64,000 nucleotides of DNA, taken from assembly GCA_030651765.1 (NCBI GenBank), contig JAUSBY010000005.1, positions 1-64,000 of the forward strand. Direction: 5' to 3'. Under the pieces are notes generated by a model. The model was not told the origin of the DNA, made no database searches, and saw only the letters and a program-made list of their open reading frames with translations. A program made the translations under genes and the position numbers. This document shows positions 37,783 to 61,367 of this stretch, piece by piece; within the stretch, counting starts at the first letter, position 1, and the number at the start of each line of letters is the position of its first letter. This DNA is from Coriobacteriia bacterium (lineage in GTDB: Bacteria > Actinomycetota > Coriobacteriia > Anaerosomatales > Anaerosomataceae).

Positions 37783-37805
37783 GAGCTAAGACCACGACTT
37801 AGCTC
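37783..37805 (-). terminator. Hairpin at the end of the kinase gene
   Basis: GAGCTAAG (37783-37790) and CTTAGCTC (37798-37805) pair perfectly with a 7-nt loop; the right arm overlaps the kinase stop codon. On the minus strand it is followed by CTTCG, a poor T-run. It separates the kinase gene from dapA. The remaining ~140 nt to dapA hold no further element I can name. Confidence 0.5.
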
Positions 37806-39216
37806 AGTCGTCATCATCATTGGGCTTGCCGCGCGTGTTCGGGTCGGTGCCGAGGCTGAGCACGTAGGTGACGACCGAGCCCTGTGGCGCCATCTCCTCG
37901 TCGAGCGGTGTCTGCTCGATCACGGTGCCCTTGCGTACGTCACTGTCATACCGCGGACGCAACGCCTCCGGGATGAACCCGGCACTCTCGAGTTCCGCTA
38001 CCGCTTCGTCTTCGCGCATGTCGATGATGTCGGGGACTTCGACCATCTCCGGAGCTTCGGGCACGATCACGGGGTCGGCGACCGGCTCCACCTCCGGTAC
38101 TGCATCCACGGCCGGGACGAGTGGGTCCTGGCTGCTGCGCGGACCGATGCTCCACATTGCGCCGAGGGCGGCAACCACGAGGAGTGCGGCCAGTACGATC
38201 CAGGGCCACACCAGCCTGCGCCGCGGCGGCGAGTCGGGCGCAGGGGCCTGAGGGGCCTCCACGGCTTCCGCGGGGTCGACGCTCCCCTGCTCCGGGGCTG
38301 CTACCTGCGACATCACGGCGGTTGGCGCCACGTGCGGCGCCGCGCCCGGCACGCCGAGGCCTGCGACCATGCCGGCGTACCCGGCCGCGACGTCGCCAGA
38401 ACGGCCCTGCGCGATGGCGCTCAAGTCCCGCTGGAGGTCACCCGCCGAGACGTAGCGGTCGGCCGTCTGCTTCTGCATCGCTTTCACGATGACGGCGTCC
38501 AATGCAGGCTCGATGTCGGGGTTCACGAGGCGCGGTGACTCCGCCTCCTCGTTGACCTGCTTCATCGCCACGGCCACGGGCGTGTCGCCGTCGAACGGCA
38601 CGTGACCGGTGGCGGCTTCGTAGAGGACCACACCAAGGGAGTACAGGTCGCTGGCAGGGGTGAGCGGCGTGCCGAGCGCGGCTTCCGGGGAGAGGTACTG
38701 CGCGGTGCCGAGGACCGACCCGGTCTGAGTCTTCATCGACGGGCCCGCCCGCGCTATGCCGAAGTCCATGAGCTTCACCGCACCATCGGCCCGCACCATG
38801 ATGTTGTGCGGCTTGATATCGCGGTGGATGATGCCGTACCCGTGGGCGACTGACAGCGCAGCACACACCTGCACGCCGATCTCGGCGACGGTGCGCGACG
38901 GCAGTGCGCCCTCCCGCTCGATCATCGACTTGAGATCGGTGCCGTGTACGTACTCCATCACGATGTAGAACGTGCCGTCGTCCTGGCCCCAGTCGTACAT
39001 GTTCACGATGTTGGGGCTCTGGAGGTTGGCGGCCGCCTGGGCCTCGTGGCGGAACCGCGCTGCGAACGAGGGGTCGTCGGCAAGATCGGCGTGCATGACC
39101 TTCACGGCCACGGTTCGCCCGAGGACTTCATCGACCGCCTTGTAGACGTCGGCCATGCCCCCGGTACCGATCTGCTCGGTGGCCCGGTACCTCTGGCCGA
39201 GGAACAACTCCTCCAC
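37804..39216 (-). CDS. Membrane Ser/Thr protein kinase with one PASTA domain
   Basis: 470 residues. Kinase domain ~9-275: glycine loop IGTGGMADVYKA, VAVKVM lysine, catalytic HRDIKPHN, DFGIARAG and a threonine-rich activation loop (KTQTGSVLGTAQYLSPE). A membrane helix follows (~338-358, WPWIVLAALLVVAALGAMW) and then a single PASTA domain (~395-460, VEVPDIIDMREDEAVAELESAG), where PknB-type kinases usually have three or four. PASTA domains sense muropeptides or lipid II outside the cell. The GTG start is 5' of an EELFLGQRY-type N-terminus. No phosphatase or division cluster adjoins it. Confidence 0.92.
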   Translation of the reverse strand: MEELFLGQRYRATEQIGTGGMADVYKAVDEVLGRTVAVKVMHADLADDPSFAARFRHEAQAAANLQSPNIVNMYDWGQDDGTFYIVMEYVHGTDLKSMIEREGALPSRTVAEIGVQVCAALSVAHGYGIIHRDIKPHNIMVRADGAVKLMDFGIARAGPSMKTQTGSVLGTAQYLSPEAALGTPLTPASDLYSLGVVLYEAATGHVPFDGDTPVAVAMKQVNEEAESPRLVNPDIEPALDAVIVKAMQKQTADRYVSAGDLQRDLSAIAQGRSGDVAAGYAGMVAGLGVPGAAPHVAPTAVMSQVAAPEQGSVDPAEAVEAPQAPAPDSPPRRRLVWPWIVLAALLVVAALGAMWSIGPRSSQDPLVPAVDAVPEVEPVADPVIVPEAPEMVEVPDIIDMREDEAVAELESAGFIPEALRPRYDSDVRKGTVIEQTPLDEEMAPQGSVVTYVLSLGTDPNTRGKPNDDDD

Positions 39217-39416
39217 GCGTCACATCCGAACTGGTTGCCGAGGGAAGGGACTGCGTACTCCCTGAATCTACCCCAGTTGCGGAGCGGGGGGTGCTGCGTG
39301 CGGGTGGCGGGCGGCCGGTACAGGGGTGACAGGCGCCCAGCATGCTTGGGGATGAGCGGCGAGCAGAGCGAGGCGGCTCGATCTCGGGTTAGGTAGGCGT
39401 CCTAGCTTCCAGACGC
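39217..39416. other. 200-nt intergenic region at the left border of the accessory segment
   Basis: Contains the upstream region of the kinase gene and, at its right end, a GTTAGGT half-site and a hairpin. No ORF of coding character. Base use is GC-rich with G-runs (GCGGGGGGTG, near 39281-39291) and differs from the flanking nuclease gene. Confidence 0.5.
39388..39397. repeat. Inverted repeat, left copy (GTTAGGTAGG)
   Basis: GTTAGGTAGG is repeated in inverse at 40271-40280 (CCTACCTAAC), so the two copies bracket the nuclease gene. The first seven bases fit the integron R' core GTTRRRY. Confidence 0.65.
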
Positions 39417-39420
39417 CTAC
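39393..39420 (-). terminator. Hairpin overlapping the nuclease-gene stop
   Basis: GTAGGCGTC (39393-39401) pairs perfectly with GACGCCTAC (39412-39420), 10-nt loop; the right arm contains the TAG stop of the nuclease gene. It is not followed by a T-run. It partly overlaps the inverted repeat, so it could be part of a recombination site instead. Confidence 0.5.
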
Positions 39421-40196
39421 TCAATCGTTTCGCTTGCAGGGGTGCAGGATGTCGCTGGCTTCCTGGGCGCTGCTTTCGCGGCACGCTGCACCCGCTTCAG
39501 TTGCTTGTCGACCGTAGCTCCCTGAGCTTCTGGCCGGATGACGCAGTCGACCAGAATCTGTCCGAGTTCATCTAGCGCGACGCGGTTGCCCGAGTCCGCC
39601 TTGATCTCCGCACGTAGCCGCGTGAGCACTGACTCGCTGAGCAGGAGCCTGGCGATATTGGAGCCGGCCAGAGCCCTCATTCGCTGGTAGTGCGTCTCCA
39701 GCTCGTCCTTGCGCTGCGCCTCCGGCGTGAGCAGATACATCAGCTCAGCTTTGTCCTTGGGCTTCATGACCTCGTCGAGCAGGCTCACCTCGAATATCAG
39801 CTCGTGCTCAACCGGCTTGTTGAACAGAACACGATAGAGCCGCCACTCAGCTCCATTTGTGAGGATGACCCATTCGACGCCCTGGTTGGCGGCGTACGAA
39901 ACCGCCTGGTAGAGGTGCTTCTCATTCAGGGTCGTCGCGATCGCCTTCACCTCGATGATGATGAAGTGCTTGCCGTCCTTGCGGATGACGAAGTCCGCGT
40001 AGCTCCCCTTGATGCGAAACTCGCCAGTTAGGTTGTCGAAGGCGTCCCACCCGAGAGCATCGCTCACGATGGAGGACACGATCATGCGCGTGTCGCTCTC
40101 CTTGGCTCCGTTGGCGCGCGCCTTCTGCGCGACACTCTTGTACTTACGGAGACCCTTCGAGACCCGTTCGAGCGCCTTGTCCTGGTAGACGGCCAT
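39417..40196 (-). CDS. Orphan type I restriction enzyme HsdR_N-like nuclease-fold protein
   Basis: 259 residues. Residues ~35-125 resemble the N-terminal PD-(D/E)xK domain of HsdR: a helix with DTRMIVSSIVSDALGWD, the catalytic-type Asp in SYADFVI (D68), the E-V-K triad end in IIIEVKA (E82, K84), then QAVSYAANQGVEWVILTNG, a motif typical of type I R subunits. The helicase motor is missing and no hsdM or hsdS is nearby. The rest (~130-259) is helical with a basic tail. Codon use looks less GC-rich than its neighbours, suggesting transfer. ATG start behind GGGGGG. Flanked by inverted repeats. Confidence 0.8.
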   Translation of the reverse strand: MAVYQDKALERVSKGLRKYKSVAQKARANGAKESDTRMIVSSIVSDALGWDAFDNLTGEFRIKGSYADFVIRKDGKHFIIIEVKAIATTLNEKHLYQAVSYAANQGVEWVILTNGAEWRLYRVLFNKPVEHELIFEVSLLDEVMKPKDKAELMYLLTPEAQRKDELETHYQRMRALAGSNIARLLLSESVLTRLRAEIKADSGNRVALDELGQILVDCVIRPEAQGATVDKQLKRVQRAAKAAPRKPATSCTPASETIE

Positions 40197-40270
40197 CGCA
40201 TCCCCCCGACATCGACTGCGACTTCAACCCGAGTGTAGCCCAAGGATGTGACCCGCGCCCCCGCACCGGC

Positions 40271-40280
40271 CCTACCTAAC
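40271..40280. repeat. Inverted repeat, right copy (CCTACCTAAC)
   Basis: Exact inverse of GTTAGGTAGG at 39388-39397; together they flank the nuclease gene. It also forms the left outer box of the attC-like site. Confidence 0.65.
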
Positions 40281-40370
40281 GTCTTAGCGCGTAACCTGCG
40301 CCGCGCTCCTACTGCTGCACTGCCGAGATTACCTCACATGCGCGGCGTCTGGTTGACGCGCGGGTTAGAT
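40274..40370. repeat. Integron attC-like recombination site candidate
   Basis: Outer boxes ACCTAAC (40274-40280, fits RYYYAAC) and GTTAGAT (40364-40370, fits GTTRRRY) are near-complementary. Inner boxes GCGCGTAACC (40287-40296) and GGTTGACGCGC (40351-40361) pair fully except for one extra G at 40355, like the extrahelical base of attC sites. The centre has a further stem, CGCCGCGC with GCGCGGCG (40299-40306 and 40340-40347). Total 97 nt, inside the attC range. Spacer lengths between outer and inner boxes are unequal (6 and 2 nt), which is atypical. Confidence 0.5.
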
Positions 40371-40601
40371 GTGCCTTGCCCGACGAGCACCAGCCTCTGC
40401 GGAGCGCTGCACGGAGTGCGGCGCTCCGCTCAGCCGCGACTCGACCGCTCGCATCTGACCTACCCCGAGCGGCCCGGGGCGGACCTGCGCCCTCGCTGCG
40501 TGGCACCTGGCGAGTGCGCGCGCCGCTCTTGCCGACACGGAAACGGACCTGGATCCACGCCGCTGGAGGACCACCAGGATGTGCAGCTACATCTAACCCG
40601 C
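40360..40601. repeat. 242-nt segment with 13-nt terminal inverted repeats
   Basis: GCGGGTTAGATGT (40360-40372) and ACATCTAACCCGC (40589-40601) are perfect inverses. The interior contains the hairpin GCGGAGCGC ... GCGCTCCGC (40399-40429) with an inner GCAC-gga-GTGC. It may be a cassette without a gene, or a MITE-like element; no target duplication is evident. Confidence 0.6.
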
Positions 40602-40745
40602 AATTCTGCGGTCTGCGCTCATCCCCCGATGCGCATATCCGCGTTCCGTCTATGGGCACGCCACTCCGAGTGGTGCCCGAATGGCAGCATAACACCTGCG
40701 CTTACGCAGTCTGCATAACCGGCCAACCGGCAGCTCCCCCCGCTC

Positions 40746-41963
40746 CTACTCCCCCAACCCGAACCCTTCGTGCAGCGCCCCCACGGCACGCTCGGCATCC
40801 TCGGCGGGCACCAGTACTGAGATGGTGGTGTGGCTGTCGGCGGTCTGCAGGACGTGCACTCCGGCGCCGGCAAGTGCCTCGGCCATGCGGGCCATCACGC
40901 CGGGTACCCCGTGCATCCCCGCGCCCACAAGGGTCACCTTCGCAAGTCCGTTTCGGACCTCGTGTGGGAGGCCGAGAGTGGTGATGACCTCGCATGCGCG
41001 ATCGAGGTCACCTGCAGCGACGGTGAACATCAGCGTGACGCCCGAGGGGGTGAACATGTCGAGCGAGACTCCCGCATCGGCCATCGCGCGGTAGACGCGC
41101 GCCTGCACGGCCATGTGTGCTGCGGCGTCCTCTTCGTCCGGCAGCTCAACGCGGATGCGGGAGACGCCCGAGGCGTGCGATATGGCGGTGGCGACCGATG
41201 AGGGCCGAAACGAAGCGATATCGGCCACCAGCGTGCCCGGGTGGTCGGTGTAGGTGTTGCGCACGCGCACCTGCAGGCCGCTTGCGAGCGCAAGCTCGGC
41301 AGCCGGCGTATGTACCACGCGCGAACCGTGTCGGGCCATCTGGAACAGCTCGTCGGCGCGAATCACATCGAGCACCGTGGCCCCGGCAAGCGCACGCGGG
41401 TCAGCGGTCATCACACCGTCCACGTCGGTGTAGATCTCCACGGCCTCGGCCTCGAGCGCCACACCGAGCGCGCAGGCAGTGGTATCGCTGCCGCCGCGGC
41501 CAAGCGTGGTGACGCATCCGTCCGCGTCGATGCCCTGGAAGCCGGCGACCACCGGAACCTCGCCCCGAGCGATGGCGTCGAGAAGCGGCGCCGGGTAGAT
41601 GTCGGTCACGGCAGCGTTCTCGTGCACGCCGTCGGTGCAGATCCCGGCTTCGCCGCCGGTGAGCGCGGTCGCGTCGATTCCGGCGGCGCGAAGCTCGTGT
41701 GCCACGACCACGGCGGATATCAACTCACCAGTGGATGCGAGCAGGTCGCGCTCGCGCGCGTCGGTCGGGAGGTCCGCCACGAGCGCGAGCAGCGTGTCGG
41801 TGGCATACGGCGCTCCGGCGCGACCCATTGCCGAGACCACGACCACCGGCGCAGTCTCGAGCTCGAGCGCCTCGGTGACGCGGCTGGCGATCGCTCCCCT
41901 GCCCTCTGGCGTTGCAACAGACGTCCCGCCGAACTTCATGACGACGATCGGACGCTCGGCCAC
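40746..41963 (-). CDS. Aspartate kinase
   Basis: 405 residues. N-terminal kinase domain (MKFGGTSVATPEGR, ~9-22; STGELISAVV; GRGGSDTTA, TDVDGVMTADPR) and two C-terminal ACT domains (~262-400), where lysine and/or threonine inhibit. It phosphorylates aspartate, opening the Asp-family pathway to DAP, lysine, threonine and methionine. GTG start 1 nt after the dapB stop, so coupled. Which LysC subclass it is cannot be decided by eye. Confidence 0.94.
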   Translation of the reverse strand: MAERPIVVMKFGGTSVATPEGRGAIASRVTEALELETAPVVVVSAMGRAGAPYATDTLLALVADLPTDARERDLLASTGELISAVVVAHELRAAGIDATALTGGEAGICTDGVHENAAVTDIYPAPLLDAIARGEVPVVAGFQGIDADGCVTTLGRGGSDTTACALGVALEAEAVEIYTDVDGVMTADPRALAGATVLDVIRADELFQMARHGSRVVHTPAAELALASGLQVRVRNTYTDHPGTLVADIASFRPSSVATAISHASGVSRIRVELPDEEDAAAHMAVQARVYRAMADAGVSLDMFTPSGVTLMFTVAAGDLDRACEVITTLGLPHEVRNGLAKVTLVGAGMHGVPGVMARMAEALAGAGVHVLQTADSHTTISVLVPAEDAERAVGALHEGFGLGE

Positions 41964-61329: not shown

Positions 61330-61367
61330 AGGCGCCGAGGGGGGTCGAAAGGCGGCGCGGCCGAGGC

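Follow-up and report, generated by a model that had tools for sequence, protein, structure and literature searches.

The window, as we call the whole 64,000-nucleotide stretch of DNA analysed here, contains an array of two cassettes that very probably (about 0.85 in our estimate) lies at an integrase-less copy of the attI site of this lineage, just downstream of and co-directional with the host gene ask. Judged from its sequence, the locus is a genuine integron cassette array, small and partly eroded, running in the minus direction from ask to a kinase gene. The order in that direction would be ask, attI (cut between 40597 and 40596), cassette 1 with attC1, cassette 2 with a truncated attC, and the kinase. 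The array starts at position 40597, 149 nt past the ask stop codon. The following features were assigned:

40746 to 41963, minus strand: ask (aspartate kinase), the host gene immediately upstream of the attI-like module
40591 to 40720, minus strand: attI-like module, a two-box module as found directly 3' of intI in relatives
40280 to 40596, minus strand: cassette 1, gene-less, 317 nt (TTAGAT...G), in first position
40274 to 40370, minus strand: attC1, with R'' ATCTAAC, a long inner stem, a loop with TAATCT and R' GTTAGGT (covariance model)
39385 to 40279, minus strand: cassette 2 with the nuclease gene, starting at TTAGGTAGGGCC and ending in a truncated attC
40232 to 40237, minus strand: promoter-like -10 box TACACT in the cassette 2 leader
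40202 to 40207, minus strand: ribosome-binding-site-like GGGGGG run in the cassette 2 leader
39420 to 40196, minus strand: orphan HSDR_N_2-type nuclease, 259 aa (to 39417 with the stop codon)
39385 to 39394, minus strand: attC2 remnant, R'' ACCTAAC plus CCG, with unrelated sequence beyond (comparison with G003 and G019)
37804 to 39216, minus strand: PASTA Ser/Thr kinase, at the far end of the array

A first-pass annotation of this DNA had read the region as integron cassettes, and this interpretation gained support from an integron integrase in the genome, further attC sites and the cassette boundaries, all of which were favourable. The four core sites it listed were observed at their places (39388 GTTAGGT on the plus strand, 40274 ACCTAAC, 40364 GTTAGAT and 40591 ATCTAAC), but the statement that they occur nowhere else did not hold, as GTTAGRY is also present at 40027, within the nuclease gene, and at 61366. 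The count of this motif in the window was at chance level (6 versus 6.7 expected), so motif enrichment was dropped as evidence for an integron, and the case must rest on arrangement, structure and comparisons. The lack of enrichment, together with the moderate z-scores of the hairpin described below, would suit sites that have nothing to do with an integron, such as transposon inverted repeats, a terminator or a chance hairpin; we give this almost no weight given the covariance model match, the IntI in the genome and the cassette boundaries seen in other genomes.

The middle two core sites had been proposed to form a 97-nt attC-like hairpin, and both the DNA fold and a covariance model agree that the hairpin at 40274 to 40370 is real. 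Folding energies were -24.3 kcal/mol (z -3.4) for the top strand and -22.5 kcal/mol (z -2.2) for the bottom strand, and the site carries R''/R' boxes fitting RYYYAAC/GTTRRRY together with a folded inner stem. A single extrahelical base had been claimed for this stem; more than one interruption was observed, likewise in the attC sites of relatives. Our covariance model (R1) comprised 25 aligned attC sites from eight relatives, with the window site and its closest relative excluded, and its consensus fold consists of 21 pairs, 11 of them with compensatory changes. When the suggested covariance search was run, R1 matched the 64-kb window once, at 40274 to 40370 on the minus strand (72.8 bits, E 1.5e-17). 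Among 90 distinct attC sites collected with R1, 94.6% of cells were paired and 16 of the 21 pairs showed double-sided changes, compared with 22-40% paired when the partner was slid by 1-3 columns, although this alignment was fitted to the R1 model and is thus biased towards it. An attC from the intI-linked array of a genome of the same genus (G001) also matched the window site over 94 nt, with 94.7% identity. On these comparisons, attC1 is a member of the attC family of the genome's own integron. The further matching sites that the cassette interpretation called for were found: R1 matched the window's genome 16 times at E <= 1e-3, attC1 included, and the others form one run on contig C7 and one on contig C11, both reaching contig ends. 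Within one family, 25 of the 27 genomes contained attC sites, and almost all had IntI.

The attC loops had a feature of their own. A TANNNT box was observed directly after the L'' arm in 80 of the 90 distinct attC sites (15 loci, alignment A2, window site 40274-40370 included), whereas shuffled loops would give 10.4 and the opposite strand gave 28. The commonest boxes were TAGACT, TAGGCT, TACACT and TACAAT, and a conserved G lay two bases upstream in 66 of the 80. This box looks like an extended -10 box aimed at the next cassette, a resemblance in sequence that we take as a lead only, as kinship among the attC sites inflates the figure.

The genome containing the window (G000) measures 2.26 Mb in 15 contigs and is 97% complete. 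The first-pass annotation had suggested a search for an integron integrase, and an IntI with its own attI was found on another contig, at C13:672-1613 on the minus strand (TIGR02249, 475 bits versus the curated cut-off of 265). Contig C14 has no IntI reaching this threshold; two other tyrosine recombinases, encoded at C14:73629 and C14:283085, score below it. Of 199 relatives sampled, 46 have IntI over the cut-off, as do most genomes of the window's family, and in many relatives intI is followed by a two-box site and then an array co-directional with intI. The intI-linked two-box site consists of TTAYRCAGACTGYR and, about 100-120 nt further on in the sites compared, a core of CAGACTGCAGAATCATT followed by GTTRRRY. 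In some genomes, including on C13, a toxin-antitoxin-like gene or pair separates intI from the attI core; BrnA/BrnT-like toxin-antitoxin genes were observed to split the attI repeat from the core at L009:205-432 and in the relatives L045, L059, L060 and L067. The intI-linked array of G000 is cut by the end of C13, and the minus-strand attC run at the end of C7 (C7:231896-241897) could continue this array (C13:1-672). Such a layout, with intI reading towards attI, is known from Treponema (PMC3607928), and the sedentary chromosomal integron of that type shares with the present one an IntI over the family cut-off, an attI directly 3' of intI and a co-directional array. Here, unlike the Treponema type, a second attI with its own array is found far from intI, behind ask, and the host is actinobacterial.

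No intI was found adjacent to the ask-linked module, and the locus itself is not a complete integron. The module is composed of the repeat TTATGCAGACTGCG (40705-40718) and the core CAGACCGCAGAATTGCGG followed by GTTAG (40593-40615), which predicts a cassette entry point between G 40597 and T 40596. Two copies of the repeat TTAYNCAGACTG are present in the 2.26 Mb genome, one directly behind intI and one behind ask in the window, and as about two chance copies of a 12-base repeat are expected at such a genome size, the evidence here is its position and not its count. A core matrix trained solely on 20 intI-linked cores, with a free spacer of 2-5, ranked the window core first of the 961 GTT sites of the window (13.1 bits, with the next at 8.0), and the exact core pattern occurred once in the window and 0 times in shuffles. 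An ungapped version of the matrix had missed the window core, its spacing being off by one, and the matrix with the 2-5 spacer recovered it. From repeat to GTT the distance was 121 nt in the window and 99-121 nt in the compared sites. The window core ends in GCGG before GTT versus CATT before GTT in most intI-linked cores, and its spacing differs too. The outer site at 40591-40597, described earlier as lacking a partner, is the core of this attI-like module and requires no hairpin partner. The symmetry of the sites had been said to allow either orientation, with minus agreeing with the gene; formally this symmetry holds, and the relatives fix the direction as minus. The plus orientation, which would place an attC at 40591-40650 ending in GTTCCGT, with a small hairpin after 40591, was rejected because comparison with relatives identifies what lies beyond 40597 as the attI module.

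An attI module and array behind ask, with no integrase adjoining, were also observed in G018, G013 and G003, all three of another genus, while in the same-genus genome G001 ask is directly followed by dapA with no array or other insert. The ask array of G018 is homologous to that of the window and has many attC sites. G013 has ask followed by attI, the array, the same kinase and then dapA, and the kinase promoter region is 93% identical between the window and G013. This shared gene order suggests, at the level of sequence, a common ancestral island at ask. The PASTA Ser/Thr kinase was observed in the ask-dapA interval of two genera (window 37804-39216, L085:9500-10915) and did not turn up at this place in any other relative examined.

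Arrays of attC cassettes without a neighbouring intI are commonly described as CALINs (IntegronFinder, PMC9024848) and may hold a conserved genomic position, as in Xanthomonas (PMC12444791). The window array differs in being headed by a recognisable attI module with intI elsewhere in the genome, and the window holds one intact attC, where the IntegronFinder default for a CALIN is at least two. It is unlikely that the locus is a plain CALIN whose cassettes entered at a casual attG-type genomic site beside an accidental resemblance to attI. Such an origin would fit the conserved-locus CALINs of Xanthomonas (PMC12444791), the cassette insertion described at attG (PMC12901181) and the eroded second attC. 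However, attG needs hardly more than the core, whereas here four genomes from two genera have both attI boxes, 99-121 nt apart, and the window core ranks top among the GTT sites of the window. We likewise consider it improbable that a former complete integron behind ask lost its intI and left an inactive attI, with the C13 intI belonging to a separate integron. The attI-array order suits such a stump, and G013 has the ask-attI-array order with no detectable IntI, but no intI remnant was found in the roughly 30 nt between ask and attI in any of the four genomes (4/4), and the attI copies behind unrelated genes would require repeated identical losses.

The integrase-less attI copy is followed by a gene-less first cassette, with the nuclease gene carried by the second; the first-pass annotation had likewise proposed one cassette with the nuclease-like gene and one without a convincing gene. 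The cassette that stands first behind intI in G001 shares 70-71% identity with cassette 1, and its counterpart in first position behind ask in G018 about 68%. It contained no convincing ORF and had no Rfam match, and a DNA search with it across the genomes returned nothing at E <= 1e-5 but G001 and the window itself, the G018 relative being weaker. A gene-less cassette family without a shared ORF was seen at first position in three arrays (window 40371-40596, L070:11176-11407, L084:18983-19188). Promoter activity is described for gene-less cassettes in Vibrio and Treponema (PMC11014356, PMC6557892), and cassette 1 resembles them in having no convincing gene and in standing first, beside attI. 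By analogy, a promoter role for cassette 1 is plausible.

The boundaries of cassette 2 were visible in other genomes. Breakpoints at G^TTRRRY had been named as a check on the cassette reading, and the nuclease cassette was found within attC arrays of two other genera, in G019 (L155) and G003 (L153), collinear with cassette 2 of the window. These cassettes become homologous to the window precisely at G^TTAGGT, at GTTAGGTAGG, behind a different attC. Between G019 and G003 identity was 91% after G^TT and 54% before it; across the window, G003 and G019, the different attCs upstream of G^TT showed 54-69% identity (shuffled sequence about 60%) and the sequence downstream 73-91%. From G^TT to the end of R'' the cassette measured 893 nt in the window and 890 and 894 nt in the collinear cassettes of G019 and G003. 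A full attC (CCTACCTAACCCGGGCGTCGAGCAGAAAGCGCG...CACGCCCAAAGAC followed by GTT) closes the cassette of G003 and that of G019, while the window retains CCTACCTAACCCG and then has about 100 nt of unrelated sequence up to the kinase promoter region. R1 gave no match at the attC2 remnant (39385-39394) in the scan of the 64-kb window. Because an intact attC stands in G003 and G019 where the window breaks off, the 39388-39394 site, also said to lack a partner, is the R'' box of a second, broken attC, the rest of which was lost or has decayed. The leader GGGCTACACTCGG is conserved in G003 and G019, and its TACACT box is kept in most other homologues. By these comparisons cassette 2 is a discrete unit with mobile boundaries, ending at G^TTRRRY and present in other arrays and contexts.

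The 259-aa product of cassette 2 matches PF13588 (HSDR_N_2) over the cut-off (E 2.4e-9), and its PD-(D/E)XK residues D68, E82 and K84 were invariant across 10 homologues. Structure prediction gave an alpha/beta core with moderate confidence (mean pLDDT 68.7); a search with the predicted fold returned nothing at E <= 0.001, the top weak PDB matches including DrdV and an HsdR fragment. PADLOC named no defence system for the nuclease and gave weak domain matches only; the defence role suggested in the first-pass annotation is putative. The PF13588 match and the invariant D, E and K are shared with the HSDR_N-type domains of type I and IIG restriction enzymes. Unlike these enzymes, the window nuclease is free-standing, with no methylase, helicase or specificity gene adjoining. 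The cargo is probably a small restriction-type nuclease, as predicted from its sequence. Of the 69 genomes searched in the order, 12 encode it, with up to 91% identity in other genera; it was absent from the same-genus genome G001. Its cross-genus identity (91%) exceeds that of ask (80-81%) and of the kinase (78%).

Further attI-like copies were observed away from intI. Within G000 there are two such cores (L119, L247, L248): one at C11:315832-315852 has two attC sites behind it, and one at C11:268477-268497 has none, lies near a gene in common with G011 (L137) and is possibly on a mobile element. In relatives, attI-like sites were found behind uvrC (G009), ABC transporter genes (G007, G014), a glutamate-synthase-like gene (G026) and others, the gene names being our reading of translated ORFs rather than the result of a family search. 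Several, though not all, of the dispersed sites have attC within 1.5 kb downstream. Repeat hits within conserved coding genes were discarded (L125, L131, L133, L135, L136, L141, L142, L147, L149). The orphan cores (window, L084, L123, L124, L127, L138, L150) mostly have GG before GTTAG, and intI-linked cores mostly ATT; from their sequences the orphan cores are perhaps a distinct subtype.

We infer that IntI probably fills the ask-linked attI in trans. IntI made elsewhere in the genome would cut the folded bottom strand of attC in circular cassettes and insert these at G^TT of the ask-linked attI, as at the primary attI, and both cassettes would have arrived by such insertion. Cassette 2 would no longer be excisable alone because its attC lost the R' half. 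Transcription running on from ask into the array, together with small promoters located in attC loops and in the cassette leaders, would probably drive expression. The ask array could instead be an old vertical remnant and not a site in use. A broader reading, which we hold tentatively and at somewhat less than even odds, is that one IntI serves dispersed attI copies behind different host genes (ask, uvrC, ABC transporter genes and others) by capture in trans and that, with a -10 box in the attC loops, each cassette could bring its successor's promoter.

The cassette array itself is of an ordinary, known kind; less ordinary is that an integrase-less attI with its array is kept behind ask in two genera. 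In the published view Actinobacteria are without complete integrons, or integrons are nearly absent from them, and this lineage contradicts the view that they lack complete integrons. One attI near the integrase has been described as typical (PMC9024848), and PMC12901181 describes attG sites as well as truncated attI copies carried within cassettes. In the literature searched, mostly outside subscription journals, we found no description of a single IntI serving complete attI copies at dispersed places. If the attI copies are used in trans, the textbook single attI beside intI would not be the sole layout of an integron, and such use would bear on the origin of CALINs at conserved loci.
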